A stretch of 64,000 nucleotides of DNA, from assembly GCA_018971775.1 (NCBI GenBank), contig JAGXAB010000001.1, forward strand, positions 62,001 to 126,000, in the 5' to 3' direction. The notes beneath the pieces are model-generated. The model was given only the letters and a program-made list of their open reading frames with translations. It was not told the DNA's origin and searched no databases. A program made the position numbers and the translations under genes. Shown here in pieces: positions 29,109 to 58,805 of the stretch (position 1 is the stretch's first letter; each line of letters starts with the position of its first letter). This DNA is from Cyanobacteria bacterium REEB67. Its GTDB lineage: Bacteria; Cyanobacteriota; Vampirovibrionia; Obscuribacterales; Obscuribacteraceae.

Positions 29109-29181
29109 GTATAAAAAATTAGATTTTTATCGGTATACAAAAAAAATCCAAAATGCACCCAGACTGCAAGCGGATACATCT

Positions 29182-29186
29182 GGAGG
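29182..29186 (+). promoter_or_regulatory. Ribosome binding site deciding the GTG start at 29195
   Basis: GGAGG lies eight bases before GTG at 29195 and is the best Shine-Dalgarno sequence in the region. It excludes the ATG at 29153. Confidence 0.75.
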
Positions 29187-29194
29187 TTGACCAA

Positions 29195-30508
29195 GTGACT
29201 GCTCCCCTTAGTCGTGAAGAGCTGAAGAAGAAACGGGATCAATATATCGTCCCCGGCGTCAAACAGATGTTTCAAGATCCTCCGCATTTTGTCCGGGGCA
29301 AAGGTCAGTATCTCTTTGATGAGACCGGTCGAGAATATCTCGATATGTTTGCCGGTATCGTCACGGTCTCGGTCGGCCATTGCCATCCAAAGGTTGTGCA
29401 GCGCACTGTTGAGCAGATCAATACGCTCCAGCACACCTCGACGATTTTTATGACTCAGCCGATGGTCGACCTTGCCGAAAAGCTCGCCTCGATAGCTCCC
29501 GGCGAGCTCTCCAAGACTTTTGTCACCAATTCCGGTACTGAAGCCAACGAAGCCGCGATTCGCTTCGCCAGGCTCGCTACGGGCCGCCACGAAGTAATCG
29601 CTCTCGAGCATTCCTATCATGGTGAATCGCATCTAGCCGGCACGCTTACGGCCAATCACAACTGGCGCCCTGACATTATGCCTGCTGCCGGTGTGGCCTA
29701 TGCTGCCAACGCTTATTGCTACCGCTGTCCTTATCAAAAAACACCGGACAGCTGCAGTATGGAGTGTGCCAAAGACATCGAGCGCGTCATCCAGACTCAG
29801 ACCAGCGGCAAGCCTGCCGTGATGATCGCTGAGCCGATCCAGGGTGTCGGTGGTGCGATCACACCGCCGGATGATTACTTCAAAGAAGTGAAAAAGATTC
29901 TGGAAAAATACGGCGCTCTCTTCATCGCCGATGAAGTGCAGACTGGTGTCGGACGTACCGGCCAACACTGGTTTGGCATCGAGAGCTATGGCGTCATCCC
30001 CGACTACATGACGATGGCCAAAGGTCTCGCCAATGGCTTGCCGATTGGTGCTGTAATGACTACACCCAAGCTCACCGAAAATCTGCACAAGCAGCAGATC
30101 AATACATTTGGTGGCAATCCGGTGTCATCGGCAACAGCATGTGCTGTGCTCGAAGTGATCGAAGAAGAAAAATTGATGCACAACGCTCATGTCGTCGGTG
30201 GCTATCTCAAGGATGGTCTGAAGGATTTGCAAAAACAATATCCAGACTTTATCGGTGATGTGCGCGGCAAAGGCCTGATGCTCGGCTGCGAACTGGCTGA
30301 CAAAAACAAGGTGCCGCTCACGCAAGAAACAGCGCGCATCGTGGAGCTTTCCAAAGATGAAGGCGTGATCATCGGTAAGGGCGGACTCTGGGGCAATACG
30401 CTCAGACTGAAGCCGCCGATGACGATCACTAAAGACAACGTCGACACCATGCTCAAGGTGTTGCGCAAAAATATCGAGGCGACAGTCAAAGTCGGAGCGC
30501 ACAAATAG
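29195..30508 (+). CDS. Class III aminotransferase, probable beta-alanine / 3-aminoisobutyrate:pyruvate type
   Basis: The 437-residue PLP enzyme resembles alanine-glyoxylate aminotransferase 2. It shows FVTNSGTEANEAAIRFAR for phosphate binding, IADEVQTGVGRTG with the Asp that holds the PLP ring nitrogen, and the PLP lysine in TMAKGLANGLPIGA. A distinctive CYRCPYQK...CSMEC segment is shared with that subfamily. Its position first in an operon with beta-ureidopropionase and both dihydropyrimidine dehydrogenase subunits suggests it removes beta-alanine or 3-aminoisobutyrate, the end products of uracil and thymine breakdown, giving malonate semialdehyde or its methyl form. The substrate is inferred from context. 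The GTG start is fixed by GGAGG eight bases upstream. Confidence 0.9.
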   Translation: MTAPLSREELKKKRDQYIVPGVKQMFQDPPHFVRGKGQYLFDETGREYLDMFAGIVTVSVGHCHPKVVQRTVEQINTLQHTSTIFMTQPMVDLAEKLASIAPGELSKTFVTNSGTEANEAAIRFARLATGRHEVIALEHSYHGESHLAGTLTANHNWRPDIMPAAGVAYAANAYCYRCPYQKTPDSCSMECAKDIERVIQTQTSGKPAVMIAEPIQGVGGAITPPDDYFKEVKKILEKYGALFIADEVQTGVGRTGQHWFGIESYGVIPDYMTMAKGLANGLPIGAVMTTPKLTENLHKQQINTFGGNPVSSATACAVLEVIEEEKLMHNAHVVGGYLKDGLKDLQKQYPDFIGDVRGKGLMLGCELADKNKVPLTQETARIVELSKDEGVIIGKGGLWGNTLRLKPPMTITKDNVDTMLKVLRKNIEATVKVGAHK

Positions 30509-30577
30509 AGCTTCGCTTGAAACGACCACCACTCAAAAAAATTAGGGCCGAAATTCTGTGCTTTAGGAGATGTATCT

Positions 30578-31465
30578 ATGTCCAAGATCGTACGCTGTGG
30601 ATTGATTCAGACTAAGAACGACGTTGTCTCGCCGCAGGGTGGCACGGACAAAAAATTGCTCGCCAAGATAAAAGACGCCATGCTCGAAAAGCACCTGAAA
30701 TATACGGAAGAGGCGCACAAAAAAGGTGTGCAGATTTTGTGCTATCAGGAAATTTTCAACGGGCCCTATTTTTGCGCTGAGCAAGAAACCTGCTGGTATG
30801 ACGCTGCCGAGTCCATCCCTGATGGTCCGACGATCAAAAAGATGCAGGAAGTGGCGAAGAAATACGGCATGGTCCTTGTCGTACCTATTTATGAAGTCGA
30901 GCATACCGGCGTCTACTACAACACCGCCGCTGTCATCGATGCCGATGGTAAATACCTCGGCAAATACCGCAAAAATCACATTCCCCATGTTGCTCCCGGC
31001 TTCTGGGAAAAATTCTATTTCCGTCCGGGCAATCTCGGCTATCCAGTTTTTGAAACCAAGTTTGCCACGATCGGCGTCTATATCTGCTATGACCGCCACT
31101 TCCCCGAAGGCGCCCGCGCCCTTGGTTTGAATGGTGCTGAGATTGTCTTCAATCCTTCCGCTACCGTGGCCGGACTCTCCGAATATCTCTGGAAGCTCGA
31201 GCAACCGGCCCATGCCGCTGCCAATGGTTATTTCCTCGGCGCCATCAACCGCGTTGGCACCGAAGCTCCCTGGAATATCGGCGAATTTTACGGCTCGAGC
31301 TACTTCTGCGACCCGCGCGGTCAGATCATCGCCCAGGCCAGCCGCGACCAGGAAGAATTAGTCGTCTCCGACCTCGATCTCGATCAAATCAGAGAAGTGC
31401 GCAATACCTGGCAGTTCTACCGCGATAGAAGACCGGAAACCTACGAAGAGCTCGTCAAGCTCTAA
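30578..31465 (+). CDS. pydC: Beta-ureidopropionase (N-carbamoyl-beta-alanine amidohydrolase)
   Basis: The 295-residue nitrilase-superfamily enzyme has the Glu58-Lys132-Cys170 triad in CYQEIFNGPYF, GKYRKNHIPH and YICYDRHFPEG contexts. Those motifs and the IPH segment fit the beta-ureidopropionase branch, which hydrolyses N-carbamoyl-beta-alanine to beta-alanine, CO2 and ammonia. It is the third step of reductive pyrimidine catabolism. It lies 69 bases after the aminotransferase and 28 bases before preT. AGGAG eight bases before the ATG supports the start. A close alternative is N-carbamoylputrescine amidase, made unlikely by its neighbours. Confidence 0.93.
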   Translation: MSKIVRCGLIQTKNDVVSPQGGTDKKLLAKIKDAMLEKHLKYTEEAHKKGVQILCYQEIFNGPYFCAEQETCWYDAAESIPDGPTIKKMQEVAKKYGMVLVVPIYEVEHTGVYYNTAAVIDADGKYLGKYRKNHIPHVAPGFWEKFYFRPGNLGYPVFETKFATIGVYICYDRHFPEGARALGLNGAEIVFNPSATVAGLSEYLWKLEQPAHAAANGYFLGAINRVGTEAPWNIGEFYGSSYFCDPRGQIIAQASRDQEELVVSDLDLDQIREVRNTWQFYRDRRPETYEELVKL

Positions 31466-31493
31466 TTTTGGGACATTTTTTGCAGAGGCGCGT

Positions 31494-32894
31494 ATGGCAG
31501 AACATTACAAACCGACCAAATACAAGGCCTGGGAGATGACTATCGAGGAGCGATTCTCCGAATATCATCCGCCTTTCACCGAGCGTGAGGCCAAGGCCGA
31601 GGCGAATCGCTGTCTCTATTGTTATGATGCACCGTGCATGGTGGCATGTCCGACTCATATCGACATCCCTACTTTCATACGCAAGATCGCCACGGGCAAT
31701 GTCAAAGGTTCGGCCAAGACCATCCTCGAGTCAAACATACTCGGTGCCACCTGTGCCCGCGTCTGTCCGGTCGAGGTCTTGTGCGAAGGCGACTGCGTCC
31801 TCGAAGAGGACCACAAGCCAATTGCCATCGGTCGCCTGCAGCGTTATGCCACTGACTATGCCAGTGAGCGCAACATCAAATTTTTCTCCGCCGGTAAGCC
31901 CAACGGCAAAAAAGTGGCGATCATCGGTTCTGGACCGGCTGGACTTTCCTGCGCCGGCGAGCTGGCCAAGCTCGGTTTTGATGTCACTGTCTTCGAAAAG
32001 CAAAAATGGGCCGGTGGTCTTTCTACCTACGGTATCGTTGTCTTCCGCGAGCCGGTAGAAGTATCGCTTGCGGAAGTAAAGGCGATCGAAGCGCTCGGCG
32101 TCAAAGTAAATTGTGGTGTCGAAATCGGTAAGGACATCGAGTTTGATCAATTAATCGCTGACTACGACGCCGTCTTCATCGGTGTCGGCCTGGGTAAAGT
32201 ACCGCCCATGGCAGTGCCGGGCGAAAATCTCGAGGGCGTCCTCGATGGTCTCGATTTCATCTCCGCTACCAAAACCGAGCCCCTCGGTACAATCAAACAC
32301 GGCAATCGCATCTGTGTGATCGGCGCCGGCAACACCGCCATCGATTGCGCCACTATTGCCAGGCGCCTCGGTGCTGAGCGCGTCACGATGATCTACCGCC
32401 GCTCGGAAGCGGAGATGCCGGCCTATCACTTCGAATATCAATTTGCCCTGAACGAAGGCGTGAGCTTTATGTTCTTGACCCAGCCGGTGGAAGTCGTCGG
32501 CGAAAACGGCAAAGTGACCGGGCTCAAGTGCGTACGTATGGACCTTGGTGCACCCGATGCTTCCGGTCGGCGCAGTCCTGTGCCCGTAGCCGATAGCGAG
32601 TTTGTCGTGCCCTGCGACATGGTCGTTTCCGCTATCGGTCAGACCAAGCCTTTCAGCTTCATCACCGCGCTGGCCAAGCTTGGTTTGAAGGATGTGAAAG
32701 GTTATATCAAAGTCGATCCGGCGACCAATAAAACCGATCACGCCAAGATTTTTGCCGGCGGGGACTGCGTGCGCAGTCACGGCGAGGCCTCGACGGTCAT
32801 GGCTGTGCAGGACGGTAAAATCGCCGCCCGCGGCATCTACGAAGCGCTGCTTGGTGCCAAATCGGTGAAGATACCGGCCGCCTCGAAGCAGTAA
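31494..32894 (+). CDS. preT: NAD(P)-dependent dihydropyrimidine dehydrogenase subunit PreT
   Basis: PreT passes electrons from NAD(P)H through FAD and iron-sulfur clusters to PreA. The 466 residues carry an N-terminal GltD-like helical domain with two cysteine groups (CLYCYDAPCMVACP and CARVCPVEVLCEGDC) for [4Fe-4S] clusters. Two dinucleotide-binding motifs follow: VAIIGSGPAGLSCA for FAD and ICVIGAGNTAIDCA for NAD(P). The C-terminal KIFAGGDCVR is the usual FAD contact. With PreA it matches the fused mammalian dihydropyrimidine dehydrogenase. AGAGG lies five bases upstream of the ATG. Confidence 0.96.
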   Translation: MAEHYKPTKYKAWEMTIEERFSEYHPPFTEREAKAEANRCLYCYDAPCMVACPTHIDIPTFIRKIATGNVKGSAKTILESNILGATCARVCPVEVLCEGDCVLEEDHKPIAIGRLQRYATDYASERNIKFFSAGKPNGKKVAIIGSGPAGLSCAGELAKLGFDVTVFEKQKWAGGLSTYGIVVFREPVEVSLAEVKAIEALGVKVNCGVEIGKDIEFDQLIADYDAVFIGVGLGKVPPMAVPGENLEGVLDGLDFISATKTEPLGTIKHGNRICVIGAGNTAIDCATIARRLGAERVTMIYRRSEAEMPAYHFEYQFALNEGVSFMFLTQPVEVVGENGKVTGLKCVRMDLGAPDASGRRSPVPVADSEFVVPCDMVVSAIGQTKPFSFITALAKLGLKDVKGYIKVDPATNKTDHAKIFAGGDCVRSHGEASTVMAVQDGKIAARGIYEALLGAKSVKIPAASKQ

Positions 32895-32952
32895 ATATTT
32901 CGCAGTTCTGCAAACTTCAAATCTCTCCGGCCTTATCTAAAGGATAGAAATA

Positions 32953-34293
32953 ATGCCAGACCTCAAGGTTAACTTCTGCGGTATCAAGTCTCCTAATCCG
33001 TTCTGGCTCGCGTCGGCACCGCCGGCAAACAGCGCCTATCAAATCCAGAAGGCTTTCGAGCAGGGATGGGGTGGGGCTGTCTGGAAAACGATCGGCGCGC
33101 CTGTGCTAAATGTCTGCAATCGTTACGGCACTATGGACTACAAAGGCAGCAAAATAATCGGCTTGAACAACGTCGAGTTGATTTCGGATCGGCCGATTGA
33201 AGTCAACTTGAAGGAAATGGCCGAGACCAAGCGCAATTTTCCCGGGCATGCCGTGATTGCTTCGATCATGGTCGAGTCTAAAAAAGAAGCCTGGCAGGAA
33301 ATCATCAAACGTACCGAGCAAACCGGTATCGATGGTTATGAGCTCAACTTCGGCTGCCCGCATGGTATGTCGGAGCGCGGTATGGGATCGGCCATGGGGC
33401 AGGTGCCCGAGTACACTTGCATGGTCACAGAGTGGGTGACCGAGGTGACCAAAAAGCCGGTCATCGTCAAGCTTACGCCCAATGTCACCGACATCGTCCA
33501 CCCGGCACGCGCGGCCGTTAAAGGCAGAGCCAATGCTCTTTCTCTGATCAATACGATCAACAGTATCATGGGTGTCGATCTCGATACTTTCGAGCTCAAT
33601 CCCAATGTCGGCGGCAAGGGCGGACACGGTGGCTATGCCGGTGCGGCCGTCAAACCGATTGCTCTGCATATGCTCAGCGCCGTCGCCTCCGATGCGGAAG
33701 TGGCCCGGTCCGGCCTGCCGATCTCGGCTATGGGCGGTGTCGAGACCTGGCGCGATGCGGTGGAATTTATGTTGCTTGGCGCTACCAGTGTGCAAGTTTG
33801 CACGGCGGTCATGCACTACGGCTTCCGCATCGTCGAAGACATGATCGAAGGCATGTCCAACTGGATGGAAGATAAGGGCTTCGAAACAGTCGATGACTTC
33901 ATCGGCAAATCCCTGCCGCGTGTTTCCAGTTTTGGCGATTTCGATCTCGGCTTCCAGTCGGTGGCGCGCATCAATCACGACAAGTGCATACAGTGCAATC
34001 TGTGCTACATCGCCTGTAACGATGCCGCTCACCAGTGCATCGATTTGAAAGATATGAAAATCACCAGCGAAGCCAAAGAAAGATTGTGGCCTGTGGTGCG
34101 CGAAGAAGATTGCGTTGGTTGCGATCTCTGCTCACGCGTTTGCCCGGTCGATGATTGCATCACCATGGTCGAGATCGAAACCGGTCGCCCGCACATCACC
34201 TGGAATCAGCTCGTCGCGCAAAAGCCCGAAGTAATCGAATCCTGGGAAAAGATGGAAGAGTATCGCAAGACGGCGAATATCCATATTCACTGA
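32953..34293 (+). CDS. preA: NAD(P)-dependent dihydropyrimidine dehydrogenase subunit PreA
   Basis: PreA holds FMN and reduces uracil and thymine to their 5,6-dihydro forms. The 446 residues include a dihydroorotate-dehydrogenase-like barrel with NFGCPHGMSERGMG, whose cysteine is the catalytic acid of the family. A C-terminal ferredoxin domain has two CxxCxxC...C groups (CIQCNLCYIAC and CVGCDLCSRVC) for two [4Fe-4S] clusters. It lies 58 bases after preT, with AAGGA eight bases before the ATG. Its end overlaps the convergent methyltransferase gene by seven bases. With pydC and the aminotransferase it covers the pathway except dihydropyrimidinase. Confidence 0.97.
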   Translation: MPDLKVNFCGIKSPNPFWLASAPPANSAYQIQKAFEQGWGGAVWKTIGAPVLNVCNRYGTMDYKGSKIIGLNNVELISDRPIEVNLKEMAETKRNFPGHAVIASIMVESKKEAWQEIIKRTEQTGIDGYELNFGCPHGMSERGMGSAMGQVPEYTCMVTEWVTEVTKKPVIVKLTPNVTDIVHPARAAVKGRANALSLINTINSIMGVDLDTFELNPNVGGKGGHGGYAGAAVKPIALHMLSAVASDAEVARSGLPISAMGGVETWRDAVEFMLLGATSVQVCTAVMHYGFRIVEDMIEGMSNWMEDKGFETVDDFIGKSLPRVSSFGDFDLGFQSVARINHDKCIQCNLCYIACNDAAHQCIDLKDMKITSEAKERLWPVVREEDCVGCDLCSRVCPVDDCITMVEIETGRPHITWNQLVAQKPEVIESWEKMEEYRKTANIHIH

Positions 34294-48720: not shown

Positions 48721-49836
48721 GTGGAAAACTGGATCTATAAAAATTTAGTGCGCCCGGCTCTCTTCCAGATGGACGTCGAGGAAGCTCACAATCTCGGCCA
48801 CCGGCTGCTGCCCGCTTCGCGCGGGCTGCTAGAAGTCGCAGCCAATCGTCTTTTGCAGGGGCTGGACGCTGAGCTTGGCTTGCTCGCGACGACTGTCGCC
48901 GGGCGGGCCCTCCCGCATCCGATCGGCCTGGCAGCCGGTTTCGATAAAAATGTCCGTCTGCTCGACGAGCTGGCTGCGCTCGGTTTTAGCTTGGCCGAGA
49001 TTGGCTCGGTGACCGCTCTTCCCGGGCGCGGCAACGTTCGGCCACGTCTTTTTCGCCTGCCTCTGGACGGGGCCGTGATCAACCGTCTCGGTTTAAATGG
49101 CGAGGGCGCAGATGCTGTGGCGCTGCGTCTGGCCGGCCGAATCGGTGCCAGTCAGATACCGCTGGCGCTCAATATCGCTCCGACCAATATTGCCTGCGCC
49201 CTGCCGTGCACGACCCCAGTGCCATCGACGATGGAAGAAGACATTGCCTACACTTTCGCTCGTTTTAAAAACTTGCCGCTGCACTATGTGACAATCAATA
49301 CAAGCTGCCCAAATACCCACGACGGTGTGCTCAAAGAAAGCAGCCAGTTGCGCAATATTCTCTTGCGCATCGGCGGTCAGAACAGTCAGAACTTGCCCGT
49401 TTTTTTGAAGCTTTCGCCTGACGCAAACGATGCGTTTTTGAAACAAGCGCTTGAGATTGCCGGAGAGTTTAACGTGCGTGGTTTTGTCCTGGGTAATACT
49501 TCCACGACCAGGAATGGCCTGCGCACCGATCCCGCTCTGATCGCCGCAATCGGGGCAGGCGGTCTTTCCGGCACGCCAATTCGGGCGCTTGCTCTCAATT
49601 TGATTCGTCGGGTGGCCAGGCTCAAAAGAGCGGAGCAAGAAATCATCGCCTGTGGTGGCTTGAGTGAGGCGCAGGATATCCTCGCCGCGATTAAGGCCGG
49701 GGCACAGGCCGTGCAGATTTATACAGCGATGGTCTATGAAGGACCCTTCCATGCCATTCGCTTGCGACGCGACCTGGCTCTTCTGCTGGCGCGCTCAGGT
49801 AAATCTCTGGCCGAGCTGGTCGGCAGTGAGCTTTGA
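48721..49836 (+). CDS. pyrD: Dihydroorotate dehydrogenase, class 2 fold with cysteine active site
   Basis: The 371-residue flavoprotein makes orotate in pyrimidine synthesis. It has the class 2 N-terminal membrane-associating helices (PALFQMDVEEAHNLGHRLL) and the class 2 barrel pattern GLAAGFDKN and VRPRLFRLP. The usual class 2 catalytic serine of NxSSPNT is Cys196 here, in INTSCPNT, as in class 1 enzymes. C-terminal ACGGLSEAQD and VQIYTAMVYEGP bind FMN phosphate. Class 2 enzymes pass electrons to quinone; whether this one does is uncertain given the cysteine. It starts with GTG. Confidence 0.93.
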   Translation: MENWIYKNLVRPALFQMDVEEAHNLGHRLLPASRGLLEVAANRLLQGLDAELGLLATTVAGRALPHPIGLAAGFDKNVRLLDELAALGFSLAEIGSVTALPGRGNVRPRLFRLPLDGAVINRLGLNGEGADAVALRLAGRIGASQIPLALNIAPTNIACALPCTTPVPSTMEEDIAYTFARFKNLPLHYVTINTSCPNTHDGVLKESSQLRNILLRIGGQNSQNLPVFLKLSPDANDAFLKQALEIAGEFNVRGFVLGNTSTTRNGLRTDPALIAAIGAGGLSGTPIRALALNLIRRVARLKRAEQEIIACGGLSEAQDILAAIKAGAQAVQIYTAMVYEGPFHAIRLRRDLALLLARSGKSLAELVGSEL

Positions 49837-49855: not shown

Positions 49856-52495
49856 CTAATCGATTGATTTGATCGTGACCGGCGGACTGGGCAGGGACAT
49901 GAGTTTGCCGTCCTTGCTGCAGAGCACGATTGTGATCTGGCGAAGGCCCAGGAGGCCGGGCCTTCCCGGTAAATGAGCAGGCTTGACCCGCTCCAGTACC
50001 ACTGAAAGTGGCAGACGGCCGATCAAATGATTGTTTTCTTTGTCCTTCTCGGCCAGCGCTAAAGTTAGAACCGGACTGAGATTGTCCAGAGCAACCGGTC
50101 GGAAAAGGTCATATGCTGAGGCCGGATCGATTGTCGTATTTTTGTCGGTGACGAAAAATTTGAGCTTGCTGTAAGGCGCAGCTGCGGCAACGGCGGTGAC
50201 GTTCCAGTTTAAGAAGGGAGCGCCTTCCTGTTTGCCTTCCATGGCCAGTTTCGGCACGAGGGCGTCATCGCCGGTCATTTTCAAGCTGTCCGGATCGAAG
50301 CGCACGGGCCCTTTGCTCAAATCAAAACTCAGTCCAATCTCGACCGGTTTGGCTTGTAGCAAATAAGAGCGGTAGCGGGCCGGATAAAATAGGTAGCGAC
50401 TTTCTTTGTCGTCAGCGGAGGGCTCAGCCAGGGGGTCGGCGGTTCCCAGTATTTCTTGGCTTTGCGGGTCGCGCCAGAGGAGCTTGCAGCGCGAAGCCAT
50501 GCCGACATCGCGATCTTCCACGACGAGGCTGACTGTGGCGTTTGCAGGAGCTGCCGCCGCCACCGTTCCTTCTTTTCCCAACCAAAATATCAGTGGTGTC
50601 GCCGCCGCTCCATCGAGCTTGGCCACTTGCCAGAGGTGAGTGTCGAGCCTGGTCAAAAGGGCGCTATTTTGAGCAACGACTTTCCAGCCGGCGGTTTTAT
50701 CCGGCTCATTTTTAATTGAGTTGAGAACTGGTAGTTTAAGTAACTCGGCTTTGAAGGCGTGGTCGAGATCCGCGGTTTGATCGGCTGTTTGTTTGCGCTC
50801 TTGCTTTTTTGCCCTTTCGTAGTCGAATTTTTCCAGTTGCGATTTTTGGTTCGACCAGATGTAGACATTGCCGGTGGTGCGCGCTGCTACCGCTTGCAGC
50901 TGGCCGGGCCAGATAAATTCACGACTGCCGCTAATCGCAGGCTCGATCGTGAGGATGTGGTCGCCGCTCAGATCTTCGCCGCAGAGAGGCGGGCGGTTGA
51001 AGATATCCAGGTAGAGCTTGCGACCGAGCATGCCCGCGCCCTTATAATCCTGGGGCAAATTGAGCAGAGTGATCCGACCTTCCGGACTGGCCGGTACGGC
51101 CTGGCGCAACTGGCTTTCGAAACTGGCGAGCAGGACGCTTGCCTGCTGCCAGGCCCCGAGATTGACCTGCAAACAATAGAACCAGACCAGGTATAGAGCG
51201 GGCAGGGCAATCAGGGCGGGAGTCGAAAAAATGGCAAAGGTTTTTTTAGGTACGGCTTCGACAGACGGCAGTGCCATCAGGGCCAGGCCGATACAGAGCC
51301 CAGCCGATGAGAGGAAGAAAAGGCGGCTGCCGACAAGATTTGGATAGATATGCCAGATCTGAAAGGCCGGCAAAAGGGCGAGCGCGGCCCAGAGCAGTGC
51401 AGCAAGCGGCACCAGCAGCAGTGAGGCTCGGGCGCGCGTGATCGTAAAAAGGGCGAGCTGACGCAAAATAAAGGTGGCGCCGATGACGATCAAGGGCAGG
51501 ACGCAGGGAAGCACCAGAGCTCGCACCGGCATAAACTCCTCTGAGATTGGCACGAAAATTTTTACCAGGCTGTCGCGGTTGGCAAATATTTTCATTGCTC
51601 CGGGCAAGTCGGCAAAACCGGCGGCGCCATAGCCACCTACCGTGGTGCCGATTATCGCCTGACGAAAGTAAGCGAAGACAATCAAGGTAATCAGGAAGGG
51701 CGCGGTGGCTAAAACAATTTCTTTCAGTCGGTCCAGTAAAACGGCCTGGACCGGTCTGGCCGCGGCGCGGGCGATTGCCTGCGGACGTGGTGTGCGGGCC
51801 GTGACGTGCTGTGGCAGGCAAGCAAGTAAAGCGATTGCCGCGGGCAGGGAGACGGCGATTTCTTTACTCGCCAGAGCCAGGATAAAAAATACGAGCGAGA
51901 GCAGCAGGTAGCCTTTTTCTCTCCCTAATTGCAGACGTAAAAAGCAGAAGAGACTGGCCAGATAGAAACAGGTGGCAAAGCTGTCCACGCGGCCGATTAT
52001 CCAGGCTACCGATTCGGCATGGAGGGGATAAACACTGAAGAGCAGGCCGGCCCACAGGGCTGTCAGGGCGCCGCTTCGGCCACCGAGACGGCCGGTTATT
52101 TCCAGGGTGATCAAAGAGACCAGAATCGAGCAAGTGGCAAAGACGACGATATTGGTAAAGTGATAACCGAAGGCCTTGGTGTGGAAGAGCAAGTAATCGA
52201 TGAAAATGGAAAAGGAAATAACCGGTCGATAGCTCTTCATAATGTCGGAGCCACCCCAGTTTGAGGTGAAGTTGTTCAAGAAGGGTGTGAAGTCACCGCT
52301 GAAGACTCGGGCTACATAGTCGAGATGGAGATAATCGTCGAGCAGGAAGCCCATTTTGAGCGTGGCGCCATAGGAAAAAAATACCGAAAGGACAATCAAA
52401 ATGCCTGCCGTGGTCATCTGGGTTTTGGTGGCCGGCCAGGTAATCTCGGCTTTTTCTAATTTGCGAAAACTGGCTTGCTCTAAGGCTTGGGTCAT
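49856..52495 (-). CDS. GT-C family membrane glycosyltransferase, second of a tandem pair
   Basis: The 879-residue product begins with a membrane helix followed by the catalytic acidic pair Asp53-Asp54 in FLLDDYLH, the position used by GT-C enzymes with lipid-linked donors. About eleven membrane spans reach to about residue 465; motifs LLFSVYPLHAESVAWIIGR and SKEIAVSLP recur in its paralogue upstream. The C-terminal 400 residues are a soluble beta-rich domain, probably periplasmic. It resembles TMTC/PMT-like proteins but the sugar and acceptor are unknown. It follows its paralogue by 48 bases and is co-transcribed. Confidence 0.85.
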   Translation of the reverse strand: MTQALEQASFRKLEKAEITWPATKTQMTTAGILIVLSVFFSYGATLKMGFLLDDYLHLDYVARVFSGDFTPFLNNFTSNWGGSDIMKSYRPVISFSIFIDYLLFHTKAFGYHFTNIVVFATCSILVSLITLEITGRLGGRSGALTALWAGLLFSVYPLHAESVAWIIGRVDSFATCFYLASLFCFLRLQLGREKGYLLLSLVFFILALASKEIAVSLPAAIALLACLPQHVTARTPRPQAIARAAARPVQAVLLDRLKEIVLATAPFLITLIVFAYFRQAIIGTTVGGYGAAGFADLPGAMKIFANRDSLVKIFVPISEEFMPVRALVLPCVLPLIVIGATFILRQLALFTITRARASLLLVPLAALLWAALALLPAFQIWHIYPNLVGSRLFFLSSAGLCIGLALMALPSVEAVPKKTFAIFSTPALIALPALYLVWFYCLQVNLGAWQQASVLLASFESQLRQAVPASPEGRITLLNLPQDYKGAGMLGRKLYLDIFNRPPLCGEDLSGDHILTIEPAISGSREFIWPGQLQAVAARTTGNVYIWSNQKSQLEKFDYERAKKQERKQTADQTADLDHAFKAELLKLPVLNSIKNEPDKTAGWKVVAQNSALLTRLDTHLWQVAKLDGAAATPLIFWLGKEGTVAAAAPANATVSLVVEDRDVGMASRCKLLWRDPQSQEILGTADPLAEPSADDKESRYLFYPARYRSYLLQAKPVEIGLSFDLSKGPVRFDPDSLKMTGDDALVPKLAMEGKQEGAPFLNWNVTAVAAAAPYSKLKFFVTDKNTTIDPASAYDLFRPVALDNLSPVLTLALAEKDKENNHLIGRLPLSVVLERVKPAHLPGRPGLLGLRQITIVLCSKDGKLMSLPSPPVTIKSID

Positions 52496-52543
52496 TGTCG
52501 ATTTTTTTCTGTGTTTTCTGTGTTTATCTATTTATTAATCTGT

Positions 52544-54988
52544 CTAAATTTGAAAATTGAGCGGGTCCGAAAAATAGCCAATCACTTTACCATCAGCGTC
52601 CACCGCCGCGATTTTGATCTGGAAAAAGCCATGGCCCTTGATGCCGGCAAAGGAAAGCGGCACGGCCCGACCGGCCAGTTTGCTCATCGTCGAAGTATAA
52701 AGCGCGTGCGGCGAAATTTCGCGATCGCGCAGACTGCCGCTGTAGTGCTCGAACCAGCTATTGGGCTTTGATACTTCGCAGAGAGCCGATTTTGCCCCGG
52801 GCACGCTGGACACGTCATAATTGAAGGTCGGCCTCGGTCCGTGCACGCGACAGATACCGTCTACTCCCTCGATCAGATCTCGGCCATCCGCCTCGATGCG
52901 AGGCAAACTGTCCTGCAAGCTGAGCAAGGTCAATCTTTTGATCTTGAGCGGCAGTGGACAGGCGATTGTTTTGAGCATGAGATTTTCGACTAGATCTTGT
53001 TTGAGCCAGCTTTTGTGCTCGGAGAGCTGGAATGTGATTACGCCATGATTGGCTTCGGCCTCTTTCAAAATCGGCAGAGCCATATTGCTCTCACCAAAAA
53101 TCAGATCGAGGGCGGCGTCTTTGCCGGTCGGCGCGTCGTGCAATGCCTTCAAGGTGCCGGGTTCCAGCGCGACTTCCAGGGCGTCGATATCTAAAGCGGA
53201 CTGATGTAAGGGAGGGGAGATCGCTACAGTATCATCGTTAAGTATTAGTGGTGGCGCATTGCTGCCCGGCGATGCTGCCTCGGAATTTGGTGAAGCACCA
53301 TCGAAGTCCAGGGTCTTGAGTTTGAGCGACCCGCGCTCCCAGGCGTAAAAAATAGCACCGCCATTAGCTTTGTTCTGGCATTCTTTTCTTAAGCGGCGCA
53401 GGCGCGAAACACTGATCAAATCAGCGTCTCCGTAGGTGGCTGGTTCGAAAGTATAAATCTGCTTTGTAAAATCGGCCGGTGCCAGCGGCGGTGTCAGCAT
53501 CACTGACATGGTGGCGCCGTTATAGAGCATGTGCGCGCCGCGGTAGCTCTGAGGAATATTGAGGATGACGATTTTTTTGTCCGGATTGCTGGTCGCCGCC
53601 TGACACAAGGCGCTCTGGAAAGACTTGAGCTCGAGCATGGCATGCTGCCAGGGTCCGTTGTCCTTGCTCGTCACGGTTGCCAGTGTGATGACGAAAAAGG
53701 CAAGCAGGGTGAGGCGCAGGGGCAAGAAGAAACGATCGATGACCGCTTTTTTCGACTGTAGCGGTGGTATCAACAGCAGGGCTAGCAAATAGGCGAGCGG
53801 GACCGTGGCAAAGTAGACGAAGCGGCTTCCCTGTAAGGTCTCGGTCAGATTCCAGACCTGGTAGGTGGGCGCCAGCGACAAGACCAGCCAGCCCAGACCA
53901 AAGGCGAGGGAGCGCAGTGCCGATCCCCTTTTTCGGGCCGTGCAAAGGGCCAGGATAAAATTGGCCCCGGCCAGCATGTAGAGCAATTTAAGTTCTTTGA
54001 GCAGGCCATTGTTATGTCCGAAAACGTCGATGTTGAGCGGGAAAAGCACCCGAGCCAGCGCTCCGTCGTAAAGCCAGCGTTTGGCCAGGCTGCCGGAGAG
54101 ACCCTCGCCAATAGAGCCCTGATAGCCACCGGATATGGTGCCCAGCGCCAGGGTGCGTAAAATCATGTATACAAGGAGAAGAGCCCAGAATGGCATGGAC
54201 CTTTTGATGCCGTCAAAAAACTGCTCGCGCAGGGTCCGGGGCGACGCGCCTTCTTTTGATGGTATTAGCCAGAAAAAGAGAGTCACGGTCGGCGGCAGGG
54301 CAATGGCCATTTCTTTCGAGCAGAGACTGAGGGTAAAGGCGACGAACGAGGCCACCAGGCTGAGCTTGCGGCTGGAAGACCTGGTCAGATGCTGGCTGGT
54401 CAAGAGGAAGGCCAGAGAGGCCAGGTAGAACATGCAAGCGACGCTGTCCACCCGGGCAATGATCCAGGCTACGACTTCGCAATGCAGGGGATTGACGCTA
54501 AATAGTAGGGCGGCGGCAAGGCCGGCCCAGTAAGAAAGGGGCGCGGTTAGCTGTTCGTCTGCCTGGGGCTGAGGGCCCGGGTAAAAATTTCTGGTCAGTC
54601 CTTTGACGACGATATAGAGCAACAAGCTGCAGGCTGTCTGGAAGAGCAAATTGCTCAGATGGAAGCCGGCGGCATCAGCGCCGAAAAAGAAGTAGTCGAG
54701 GGCGAGGGTGAGCGAGATCAGCGGTCGATAGAAGGTCGTGCCCTCGGCCTGCATCCAGTTGCCCCAGAAGTTTTTGGCCAGGCTGAGCCAGTCTCCGCTA
54801 AAAACATTCTTGAGATAGGCGACGTGCAAAAAGTCGTCGGCCAGGAAATAGCCGTTTATGACTCGAACGTAACAGATCCAGTTTAGAGCGAAAATCAGCG
54901 CCAGGGCAAAGAGGTCTCGCCACAGCCCGGCTACAGCCTTTCTGGGGCTGGCTTGCGACAGGATCTGGGTGGGTGCGGCTGTGGTCAC
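52544..54988 (-). CDS. GT-C family membrane glycosyltransferase, first of a tandem pair
   Basis: The 814-residue product has the same plan as its neighbour: Asp51-Asp52 in FLADDFLH after the first helix, many membrane spans to about 450, shared blocks LLFSVNPLHCEVVAWIIAR and SKEMAIALPP, and a C-terminal soluble domain of about 360 residues. The pair arose by duplication and diverged strongly outside these blocks. It starts with GTG, only six bases after a TATAAT-like box, so its mRNA could be nearly leaderless. It is divergent from the GH1 gene. Confidence 0.85.
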   Translation of the reverse strand: MTTAAPTQILSQASPRKAVAGLWRDLFALALIFALNWICYVRVINGYFLADDFLHVAYLKNVFSGDWLSLAKNFWGNWMQAEGTTFYRPLISLTLALDYFFFGADAAGFHLSNLLFQTACSLLLYIVVKGLTRNFYPGPQPQADEQLTAPLSYWAGLAAALLFSVNPLHCEVVAWIIARVDSVACMFYLASLAFLLTSQHLTRSSSRKLSLVASFVAFTLSLCSKEMAIALPPTVTLFFWLIPSKEGASPRTLREQFFDGIKRSMPFWALLLVYMILRTLALGTISGGYQGSIGEGLSGSLAKRWLYDGALARVLFPLNIDVFGHNNGLLKELKLLYMLAGANFILALCTARKRGSALRSLAFGLGWLVLSLAPTYQVWNLTETLQGSRFVYFATVPLAYLLALLLIPPLQSKKAVIDRFFLPLRLTLLAFFVITLATVTSKDNGPWQHAMLELKSFQSALCQAATSNPDKKIVILNIPQSYRGAHMLYNGATMSVMLTPPLAPADFTKQIYTFEPATYGDADLISVSRLRRLRKECQNKANGGAIFYAWERGSLKLKTLDFDGASPNSEAASPGSNAPPLILNDDTVAISPPLHQSALDIDALEVALEPGTLKALHDAPTGKDAALDLIFGESNMALPILKEAEANHGVITFQLSEHKSWLKQDLVENLMLKTIACPLPLKIKRLTLLSLQDSLPRIEADGRDLIEGVDGICRVHGPRPTFNYDVSSVPGAKSALCEVSKPNSWFEHYSGSLRDREISPHALYTSTMSKLAGRAVPLSFAGIKGHGFFQIKIAAVDADGKVIGYFSDPLNFQI

Positions 54989-55117: not shown

Positions 55118-56581
55118 ATCTCGGTTGTCTCGGCGGAAGAATTAGCCAATAAAAAAGCTCTGGCCTTTCCTGAGGGTTTTCTCTGGGGTGCAGCCACTTC
55201 TCACTTTCAAGTGGAAGGACATCCCAAAGAGATTGCTCATCGCCTCTCTGACTGGGCGCTCTGGACCGCTCAGAGCGGTCGCATCTCCGACAATACCACC
55301 GCCGATCGAGCTTGTGAGTTTTATACGCGTTACGAGGATGATATTGCGCTCATCAAGGAGCTCAACCTCAACGCCTTTCGCCTTTCATTCAATTGGCCCG
55401 CTCTGCTCAGCGACGAAACCGACGGCACGAGCGTGCATCGCGCTTTAGATCCGGTCCAGGTGCAGTATTACCGCAATCTCCTGAGCGCTCTCAAGGCGCA
55501 GGGCGTGACTACCTTCGCTACTCTCTTCCATTTCACCCTGCCCGAATTTTTAGCGGCCGCCGGCGGTTGGGAAAATCCGATGGTGATCGAGGCCTTCGAA
55601 CATTTTTCCAGGCTCTGTGCTGAATCTTTTGGCGACCTGGTCGATTACTGGATAACTATTAATGAACCGCTTGCCTACGCTTATCAAAGTTTTATTTCGG
55701 GTTTGTGGCCGCCGGGCAAAAGGGGAGAATATCTTTCCGCCTTCACCGTTATTAGACATATGCTTGAAGGACACGCTCGCGCTTATCACGCCATAAAATC
55801 AGTGAACGGGGCCAGCCAGATCTCGTACACAATGCACTGGCGTCCCTTTGTACCGAAAAATCGGCTCAATCCCCTCGATTATGTGGCGCGTTTTTTCCGG
55901 GACTATGTCTTCAATCATTTATTTCCCGAAGCCGTGCAAACCGGCGTGCTGCGCTTTCCTTTCCCCCTCAATTACAACCCTTTCGTCAGGAAGGTGGCCG
56001 GTCGAGTCGACGGACTGATCAACACTTGCGACTATCTGGCGATCAACTATTACACTCGTGAACTCTCGCAGTTCAAATTTATCTGGCCCCTCGACCTCTT
56101 CGGCGAACGTTCTGATAAAGCTGAGCTCGACACCAACGACATGGGCTGGGAAATTTATCCGGATGGACTTTTCGATCTTCTTACCCGCGACACGCTGCCC
56201 TATCAAAAAAATGGCGACGGTTCGAAGCGACCGATCGTGATCACCGAAAATGGCTATGCTGCTACTTTTGAGGCTGAGCTCACCGAAGGCGATTGGTCTC
56301 TGGCGGACCAGACCAGGATCAGTTACCTGACCGCTCATCTTAAAGCTATCCACCGGGCCATCGCTCTGGGTGTGGATGTGCGCGGCTATCTCTACTGGTC
56401 TTTGCTCGACAATTTTGAATGGGCCGAAGGCCTCAGAGCGCGTTTTGGTCTGGTGCGCGTCACCTTTTCCACCCAGGAGCGCATTTTGCGTGCAAGTGCC
56501 CGCGTCTATGGCGAGATCGCCCGCAATAACGCCGTCGATCCCGACATTCTTTTGGCACCGTCTAAAAACACTTTGCTGTGA
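55118..56581 (+). CDS. GH1 family glycosidase (beta-glucosidase type), start codon unresolved
   Basis: The product has the full GH1 barrel: acid/base Glu in TINEP, nucleophile Glu in ITENG, and the closing WSLLDNFEW. GH1 enzymes release beta-linked glucose, galactose or similar sugars. The family N-terminus FPEGFLWGAATSHFQVEG is encoded from about 55163, upstream of the first usable canonical start (GTG at 55211), so translation must begin earlier. The frame is open back to 55025 but has no ATG, GTG or TTG before that. I use ATC at 55118 because a G-rich site precedes it by eight bases; a sequencing frameshift near the A6 run at 55151 is also possible. It is followed 17 bases later by the dsbD gene. 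Confidence 0.8.
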   Translation: MSVVSAEELANKKALAFPEGFLWGAATSHFQVEGHPKEIAHRLSDWALWTAQSGRISDNTTADRACEFYTRYEDDIALIKELNLNAFRLSFNWPALLSDETDGTSVHRALDPVQVQYYRNLLSALKAQGVTTFATLFHFTLPEFLAAAGGWENPMVIEAFEHFSRLCAESFGDLVDYWITINEPLAYAYQSFISGLWPPGKRGEYLSAFTVIRHMLEGHARAYHAIKSVNGASQISYTMHWRPFVPKNRLNPLDYVARFFRDYVFNHLFPEAVQTGVLRFPFPLNYNPFVRKVAGRVDGLINTCDYLAINYYTRELSQFKFIWPLDLFGERSDKAELDTNDMGWEIYPDGLFDLLTRDTLPYQKNGDGSKRPIVITENGYAATFEAELTEGDWSLADQTRISYLTAHLKAIHRAIALGVDVRGYLYWSLLDNFEWAEGLRARFGLVRVTFSTQERILRASARVYGEIARNNAVDPDILLAPSKNTLL

Positions 56582-56597
56582 CACCTGGAGTTGGCTC

Positions 56598-58805
56598 ATG
56601 GTCAGAAATATCAGTCCGTTAAAATTTTTCGCCGGTAAGAAGCTTTGCAGGCCGGTTGTTCTATTACCTCTATTGTGTCTGTTGAGCCTTGCTCTCTGGC
56701 CGACCGGCAGCGCGCTCGGTCCTGCTTCCCTGAACTCCTTTAATCCATTTGATCCTTTACCTGCCCTCGCTCAGGCACCGGTCTCAGCCGAGGAAGCCAG
56801 CCCCGAACCGGTCAAAGCCAAATTGGTGAGCGACGGTACTGGTATCGTGCCTGGTGGCAAGTTCAAGCTCGGCGTGCAGTTTGATATCCAGCCCGGCTGG
56901 CACACTTATTACAAAGATCCTGGTGATTCGGGCATGCCGCCCAATTTTACCTGGACGCTGCCGGCAGGCTTCAGTGCCGGTCCCATACTCTGGCAAAAAC
57001 CGCACAAAACTGTCGAAGCCGAGATCGTCGCATATGGTTATGAAGGCACCGTCTTGCATGTGAGCGAGCTGAGCGCACCTGCCGATTTGAAAGTCGGTGC
57101 TAAAGTGACGTTCAAAGTAAAAGTAAAATATCTGACCTGCAAAGAAATTTGTCTGCCCGGCAAGGCCGATCTGGAAATTACCCTGCCGGTTGTAGCCTCA
57201 CCGGCAGCGGTCGGCAAATCAGCAGAGGCTCCTGCCTTTGATGCTGTCGGCGGTGGCTTCAACGATCCGGTCTCGACACTGTCTGTGACACCACCTGGTG
57301 ATCATCAGTCCGCCTCGGCGGGTGCGCCTGCCGCCGATGATCATAGTGCTAATGATAAGGGCGGCAATAGCGGGGGCGGTGAAAATAAGAGCGGCAAAGT
57401 TTCGGTCCTGGATCAAAACTACGGCGCCTCCGAGAGTCTGGTCAACTATATCCTGCCCGCCTTTCTAGGTGGTTTGATTCTCAATGTCATGCCCTGCGTC
57501 TTGCCTGTGATTGCTATAAAAGTATTGAGTCTGCTCGAGCAAGCCAAGGAAGAGCCGGCTAAAATCAAATTGCTCGGCCTTGTCTTTGCCGCGGGCATAA
57601 TTTCTTCCTTCATGGTCCTGGCCCTCACCGTCATCGCCATCAAGGCCGCCGGCCAGTCGGTGGGCTGGGGCTTTCAGTTTCAATATCCAGGCTTTGTCGT
57701 GATCATGGCGGCGGTAATACTGCTGATGTCGCTTTCGCTCTTCGGACTCTTTTATGTAAATGTCCAGGCCAGTGGGCAAATAGACAAACTTGCTCGTCAG
57801 GAAGGTCTGGTCGGTACATTTTTTAAGGGCGTGCTCGCCACCGTTCTCTCCACCCCTTGCACGGCGCCGTTTTTAGGCGCGGCACTGGGTTTTGCTTTTG
57901 CCCAACCGGCCCAGATCATCGCTTTGATCTTTTTTACTGTCGCCCTTGGTATGGCCTCGCCTTATTTGCTTCTGACGATCAATCCTAAATGGATGAAATT
58001 CCTACCCAAGCCCGGCGACTGGATGGACAAATTCAAGCAGTCCATGGGCTTTGTCATGCTCGGCACTGTAATCTGGTTAGACTATGTTCTGGCCAGCGAA
58101 TTGAGTGCCATGACTTTGATGTGGGTCAATTTCTGGTTTGTCGGCGTCGCTTTTTGCGCCTGGATCATTGCTTCTTTTAGCGACTTGAGCAGCAGCCAGA
58201 CCAGGCGCAATAAAGTTTTTGCCAGTGCTGCCGCCACTTTTGCTCTTTTTACCTATATCTGTTTTTTCCTGCAACCGGGCGTTATCGCCGCTCTTTTGCC
58301 GGGTAGTAGTGCTACTGCCGGTAGTGCTGATCACAGGGCCATGGGCGTTGGTGCCTCTGCTTCCGGCGTTGAGTCCGGCGTTGATTCCGGTGCTGTTTCC
58401 GGTTCTCCGCCGCCAGCCAGAAGCGGGGCAATAGCTGATTCCAATGAATACGGCATCAACTGGGAGCCATTCACTGTGCAAAAATTGAACGACGCCCTGA
58501 GCGACAAAAAAACCGTCTTCCTCGATTTTACCGCTGACTGGTGTCTGACCTGCAAAGTCAACGAGAAGACCGTACTGGCTACAAAGGCAGTTTCCGAGCA
58601 GCTCAAGGCCCTGCATGTGGTGACGATGAAGGCCGACTGGACCAAGCAAGACGCTGACATAACGAAACTCCTGAACAAATTCAATCGTTCAGGAGTGCCG
58701 TTGTATGTCATTTTTCCGGGTAATCATCCCGATAAGCCGATCGTCTTGCCTGAGGTAATCGACCAGAGTCTGGTCATCGCCAAATTGCAGGAAGCGGTCA
58801 AATAG
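56598..58805 (+). CDS. Protein-disulfide reductase DsbD family (ScsB-like)
   Basis: The 735-residue product carries electrons from cytoplasmic thioredoxin to the periplasm. It has a signal peptide, an N-terminal DsbD-like beta domain (about 50-215) with cysteines in LTCKEICLPG, and a Gly/Ser-rich linker. An eight-span membrane domain (about 280-560) follows, with the cysteine motifs MPCVLPVI and STPCTAPF, then a second linker and a C-terminal thioredoxin domain with WCLTCK. All redox cysteine pairs are present. ATG at 56598 has GGAG seven bases upstream. It overlaps nothing but is close behind GH1 and tail to tail with the peroxiredoxin gene. Confidence 0.93.
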   Translation: MVRNISPLKFFAGKKLCRPVVLLPLLCLLSLALWPTGSALGPASLNSFNPFDPLPALAQAPVSAEEASPEPVKAKLVSDGTGIVPGGKFKLGVQFDIQPGWHTYYKDPGDSGMPPNFTWTLPAGFSAGPILWQKPHKTVEAEIVAYGYEGTVLHVSELSAPADLKVGAKVTFKVKVKYLTCKEICLPGKADLEITLPVVASPAAVGKSAEAPAFDAVGGGFNDPVSTLSVTPPGDHQSASAGAPAADDHSANDKGGNSGGGENKSGKVSVLDQNYGASESLVNYILPAFLGGLILNVMPCVLPVIAIKVLSLLEQAKEEPAKIKLLGLVFAAGIISSFMVLALTVIAIKAAGQSVGWGFQFQYPGFVVIMAAVILLMSLSLFGLFYVNVQASGQIDKLARQEGLVGTFFKGVLATVLSTPCTAPFLGAALGFAFAQPAQIIALIFFTVALGMASPYLLLTINPKWMKFLPKPGDWMDKFKQSMGFVMLGTVIWLDYVLASELSAMTLMWVNFWFVGVAFCAWIIASFSDLSSSQTRRNKVFASAAATFALFTYICFFLQPGVIAALLPGSSATAGSADHRAMGVGASASGVESGVDSGAVSGSPPPARSGAIADSNEYGINWEPFTVQKLNDALSDKKTVFLDFTADWCLTCKVNEKTVLATKAVSEQLKALHVVTMKADWTKQDADITKLLNKFNRSGVPLYVIFPGNHPDKPIVLPEVIDQSLVIAKLQEAVK

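Follow-up and report, generated by a model that had tools for sequence, protein, structure and literature searches.

Serine and cysteine at the catalytic position are the textbook mark dividing class 2 from class 1 dihydroorotate dehydrogenases (DHODHs), a family of drug targets. In Escherichia coli PyrD, a class 2 enzyme, Phe115 and Thr178 together with a water molecule reportedly form the proton relay of Ser175, as described by Kow et al. in 2009. The class 1S DHODH of Sulfolobus has a serine in a class 1 enzyme and is the mirror image of the protein described here, the base being swapped against class in both. Class II enzymes with a cysteine are known in fungi, PMC8520639 naming A. robustus, Sch. 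japonicus and D. bruxellensis and citing a 2021 study of class 2 sequences by Sousa et al. for 'few reported exceptions'. Since such published exceptions exist, a missing serine does not by itself settle membership of class 2. The fungal enzymes are like the present protein in joining a class 2 family to a cysteine at the base position but differ from it in supporting anaerobic pyrimidine synthesis, and those of the Neocallimastigomycetes differ further in being N-terminally truncated (both from PMC8520639).

The present protein is encoded by pyrD (Table 1) in a stretch of 64,000 nucleotides from Cyanobacteria bacterium REEB67, the whole of which is referred to as the window. By profile, fold and tunnel residues it is a class 2, quinone-type DHODH. 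It scores over the cut-offs of two NCBIfam class 2 models, NF003652 (290.1 bits against 267) and TIGR01036 (219.5 against 200), falls under the cut-off of each of eight other, narrower quinone-type models, and stays far from the class 1 cut-offs (TIGR01037, 70.6 against 270; NF005574, 88.8 against 269; NF041011, 76.1 against 330; NF002702, 65.2 against 301). Its AlphaFold model, made with a 26-row alignment, has a mean pLDDT of 91.6 and a pTM of 0.92, and matches human DHODH (5h73) with Z 49.1 over 347 aligned residues at 1.7 Å, model residues 1-371 pairing with human residues 33-394 and the N-terminal helices included. The 50 structure matches listed hold no class 1 entries, which is no gauge of class 1 kinship. 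A class 1 enzyme gained horizontally is ruled out by the profiles, the fold and the trees described below.

Table 1. Window positions of pyrD and of the residues discussed
Feature	Position	Strand	Basis
pyrD, encoding a class 2 DHODH of 371 aa; start codon GTG	48721..49836	+	ORF, profiles, AlphaFold model, human DHODH match
N-terminal helices, aa 2-45, class 2 quinone-tunnel domain	48724..48855	+	model helices 2-15, 19-32, 34-45
His23, tunnel residue	48787..48789	+	alignment; retained in 36/36 rows of the window's order
Arg112, tunnel residue	49054..49056	+	alignment; retained in 36/36 rows of the window's order
Leu125, at Phe site of most Ser-type class 2 enzymes	49093..49095	+	alignment
INTSCPNT active-site motif, aa 192-199	49294..49317	+	translation
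Cys196, codon TGC, at catalytic-base position	49306..49308	+	alignment
Thr199, relay threonine, retained	49315..49317	+	alignment
Tyr334, tunnel residue	49720..49722	+	alignment; retained in 36/36 rows of the window's order

In the phmmer alignment the second serine of human NVSSPNT pairs with Cys196, and the same offset pairs human His56, Arg136 and Tyr356 with His23, Arg112 and Tyr334, which we take to be the corresponding residues of the quinone tunnel. By the same assumption Cys196 corresponds to E. coli Ser175 and human Ser215, the site of Leu125 to Phe115 and Phe149, and Thr199 to Thr178 and Thr218. Lys76, Asn193, Asn198, Lys230 and Thr260 are all retained in the alignment. Among class 2 features, the N-terminal helical extension (in the model) and the tunnel His/Arg/Tyr are thus present, the catalytic serine is absent and replaced by the cysteine characteristic of class 1, and the Phe/Thr relay is incomplete, with Leu125 for the phenylalanine and Thr199 retained. 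The earlier note had read INTSCPNT within 49291-49320, a span that does enclose the motif, and had taken the protein for a class 2 enzyme carrying the cysteine of the class 1 type; this is borne out by the class 2 profiles passed and by the pairing of Cys196 with the human catalytic serine. Overall, the protein shares fold, N-terminal helices, tunnel residues and the aligned substrate and FMN residues with E. coli PyrD and human DHODH, but has Cys for Ser, Leu for Phe, and altered GKNK and PGLRxLQ loops. The first of these loops, following Asn151 (49177-49230, APTNIACALPCTTPVPST), has APTN where GK(N/S)(K/R) is usual and is about 7 residues longer than in most relatives; model confidence drops within it, near residues 161-170.

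The cysteine is a trait of the matched members of the window's order, which is probably Obscuribacterales in the Cyanobacteriota, and not a lone oddity. Of 38 genomes searched that share the window's genus, family or order, 36 gave a match and all 36 have the cysteine, among them one truncated protein (L117) and one with the motif NISCVNT. Because all of them read Cys, a sequencing error is unlikely, and an isolated mutation is ruled out as the source of the exchange. The earlier note had proposed an 'intermediate type' and had named a cysteine common in the clade as grounds against it. Common it is, and since every matched relative in the order has it, the window protein is no odd intermediate by itself; chemically the term still fits a protein that combines a class 1-like Cys/Leu pair with the class 2 threonine and tunnel residues. 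The NISCVNT protein (L110, genome G025) is from the same family as the window, and in it Val replaces the near-invariant Pro that follows the catalytic residue.

Beyond the order the cysteine is scattered. Serine is read in all 63 proteins taken from other classes of the phylum (95 genomes matched). A small family within the class, with five genomes, has four Ser proteins and one Cys protein; three other families of the class gave seven matches, all class 1-like, and one further family of the class was searched with no match. Cysteine is found in 15 of 96 proteins from the phylum of genome G246, reached through L037 (110 genomes matched, two of the proteins being from genome G309), and in 8 of 70 from a phylum reached via a Verrucomicrobia record (73 genomes matched). 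The sets reached via an Elusimicrobia record (4 of 27, its centre being counted with the named rows) and via a Deltaproteobacteria record (2 of 8) were read fully, and a titled genome scan gave 70 further proteins, none with Cys. In total, 66 of the 375 class 2 proteins aligned have Cys, and 36 of these 66 belong to the window's order, the window protein included; left out before counting were the window's own copies, PreA-like hits, L003, duplicates of twice-fetched genes, and the fragments or broken reads L100, L102, L107 and L117. The tunnel His, Arg and Tyr occur together in 58 of the 66. Four of the Cys rows, L203-L206, form a divergent family of class 2-like proteins in which Tyr stands at the Lys76 site and Ile at that of Tyr334. 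Although L203 passes the class 2 cut-offs, its genome, G309, also encodes a Ser-type PyrD, and these four may have another function, perhaps as paralogues acting on another substrate and not as DHODHs; the Cys count is 62 when they are set aside.

The identity of the base goes together with that of the two relay residues. At positions 196, 125 and 199 (window numbering) the 309 Ser proteins read SFT (292), SAT (16) or SGT (1), and the 66 Cys proteins read CLT (43), CLV (8), CIV (4), CMV (3), CLS (3), CFI (3), CLA (1) or CFM (1). Both Phe and Thr are therefore kept in none of the 66 Cys proteins, against 292 of the 309 Ser proteins. The phenylalanine of most Ser-type enzymes sits in NRxGFN, where the window protein has Leu125, and the threonine three residues past the base, retained in the window protein, is gone in 23 of the 66. 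A Cys protein need not lose either one in particular, since Phe is retained in 4 of them and Thr in 43, and Phe is not strictly needed with Ser, since 17 of the 309 Ser proteins, all cyanobacterial, do without it. In a scan of 343 usable columns, positions 199 and 125 rank second and third, right behind 196 itself, and the next-ranked columns lie in the loop that reads PGLRxLQ in Ser enzymes, where Leu in 308 of 309 Ser proteins stands against Gly in 48 of 66 Cys proteins. Seven class 1 rows, chosen by length and motif and not by a family scan, all read CLV, which is consistent with a cysteine working relay-free; class 1A/1B enzymes thus resemble the window protein in their Cys base and in the Leu at the class 2 Phe site, but have Val where it has Thr199, and tunnel positions that are absent or different. 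In the Phe-less cyanobacterial proteins, 17 of the 63 read, the Phe site is taken by Ala in 16 and by Gly in one, with Ser and Thr retained (L144, L148, L154, L368, L371, L373, L376, L378, L389-L394, L396, L397 and L399).

This coupling appears repeatedly in the trees. In a tree of 133 rows from which the active-site columns had been removed there are nine Cys/Ser changes, and a relay residue differs in seven of seven independent pairs on well-supported branches; on that tree position 199 by itself has a median p of 0.03 (0.016-0.06) and position 125 a p of 0.06 (0.06-0.125). In a 61-row tree with bootstraps, which omits L203-L206, four near-copies and most rows of the window's order, there are eight changes (8-9 over the bootstrap trees) and a relay residue differs in six of six pairs (sign test, p 0.03). 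The p values are modest because independent switches are few, six or seven being supported. A first, sparser tree of 94 rows, with fewer Cys rows, had only five changes. When 44 Cys rows were constrained to a single clade in a 77-row quick tree, the constraint was rejected (p-AU 3e-36, a gap of 496 log units). By these trees cysteine has more than one origin among the sampled class 2 proteins, and the Cys/Ser swap goes together with a change at the relay residues. A change from Ser to Cys is the simplest reading for L120, L242/L243, the L288 group and L244, which are Cys proteins amid Ser relatives; L255, L263 and L266 belong to a mixed family. Three Ser rows, L207-L209, sit on a long branch and group with Cys rows of the G246 phylum, possibly through a return to Ser or through a long-branch effect.

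We tentatively consider a different polarity for the deepest of these lineages, one that is compatible with our main reading although we think it the less probable course of events. A deep Cys-Leu subclass, made up of the window's order and lineages in the G246 phylum and in the phylum reached through L035, might keep an ancestral, class 1-like site; Ser and the Phe/Thr relay would have come later in class 2, and several Ser lineages would then have reverted to Cys, losing relay residues each time. A tree that unites Ser-type and late Cys rows in a clade from which class 1 and the deep Cys rows are excluded scores 19.9 log units better than the free quick search (p-AU 0.85), the deep Cys rows are also allowed as a single clade (p-AU 0.82), and Leu125 is common to the deep Cys rows and all seven class 1 rows. 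However, class 1-rooted quick trees set the order amid Ser rows (SH-aLRT 84-95 in the 94-row tree, weakly resolved in the 133-row tree), the clades for both constrained tests were defined after viewing a tree, and L207-L209, Ser rows that group with the deep Cys rows, were omitted from both tests.

The reading that we favour, with a probability of roughly 0.8, is that the window encodes a class 2 enzyme whose base module, Cys with Leu, is like that of class 1, and which is predicted to be catalytic and probably still feeds quinone. The gene would specify the cell's DHODH, a membrane-peripheral class 2 enzyme in which Cys196 would accept the C5 proton of dihydroorotate while the hydride passes to FMN, and the FMNH2 would be reoxidised by respiratory quinone in the N-terminal tunnel. 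The aromatic residue that would seat the relay water beside a serine is missing (Leu125), Thr199 being present, and a thiol, being much the stronger acid compared with the hydroxyl of serine, could work without the water-Thr-Phe relay. With Cys, we propose, Phe and Thr would no longer be under selection because the thiol is acidic enough without the relay, and it would be for this reason that each Cys class 2 protein examined is without Phe, Thr or both. Catalytic activity, Cys as the base, quinone as the acceptor and thiol acidity behind the coupling are all parts of this reading that we infer. In the genome the DHO_dh matches are the window PyrD, PreA and one partial match of 44 positions, so that no second DHODH is seen, although the genome is listed as 93.6 % complete and one could therefore be absent from the assembly.

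It is unlikely that the cysteine instead marks a shift from quinone to free flavin, fumarate or NAD with anaerobic life, as in some fungi. There, class II enzymes with Cys sustain pyrimidine synthesis in anaerobic growth, some of them working without respiration and one with free FAD/FMN, although Cys is neither sufficient nor required in each enzyme (PMC8520639). Outside the window's order a heme-copper oxidase is absent from 19 of 26 Cys genomes and from 7 of 20 Ser genomes (Fisher p 0.016, kinship ignored), the Ser genomes having been picked as close relatives and a match being a score over the cut-off. This comparison covers heme-copper oxidases only and omits the genomes of L203-L206, and several of its genomes are incomplete, so an absent oxidase may be an assembly gap. 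However, heme-copper oxidases are present in all eight order members tested, and adding these eight gives a p of 0.17; the paired evidence is thin, with only G591/G617 against G544 differing, because several families have no oxidase in either their Cys or their Ser genomes. As a plain marker of anaerobes the cysteine is thus partly borne out elsewhere but fails in the window's order. The genome of the window itself has three heme-copper oxidases, and its PyrD has the N-terminal helices and the tunnel residues, which makes a non-quinone acceptor less likely. Quinone would accordingly be the likeliest acceptor, with the fungal precedent keeping another acceptor in play. That the window protein is a related flavin oxidoreductase and no longer a working DHODH is very improbable: the longer APTN loop after Asn151 would fit such a change, but the class 2 models are passed, Lys76 and the other four aligned residues are retained, and no other DHODH was found in the genome.

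The surroundings of pyrD include, about 15 kb away at 29153-34293, genes for a class III aminotransferase, a carbon-nitrogen hydrolase, a PreT-like NAD(P)-binding oxidoreductase (under the cut-offs of its best models) and PreA (NF006183, 649.7 bits, cut-off 335), which besides PyrD is the genome's second full-length DHO_dh match; this is a possible cluster for reductive pyrimidine catabolism. Beside pyrD on the reverse strand (49856-54988) are two proteins of 879 and 814 aa with no Pfam or NCBIfam match at E 0.001, and a DsbD-like protein with a thioredoxin domain is encoded at 56370-58805.

Class II enzymes with Cys have thus already been published, in fungi, and the coupling of base and relay is the part that has no match in the literature searched. 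Among the papers listed, most subscription papers lying outside the search, no title or abstract opening reports a Phe/Thr coupling or Cys class 2 enzymes of this order; Sousa et al. 2021 may already contain part of the present findings. Since the Ser/Cys mark fails for whole sampled bacterial lineages, annotating DHODHs by nothing but the catalytic residue can mislead. Base and relay residues have also changed together repeatedly, which provides a set of natural experiments on why a serine would need the relay and a cysteine would not.
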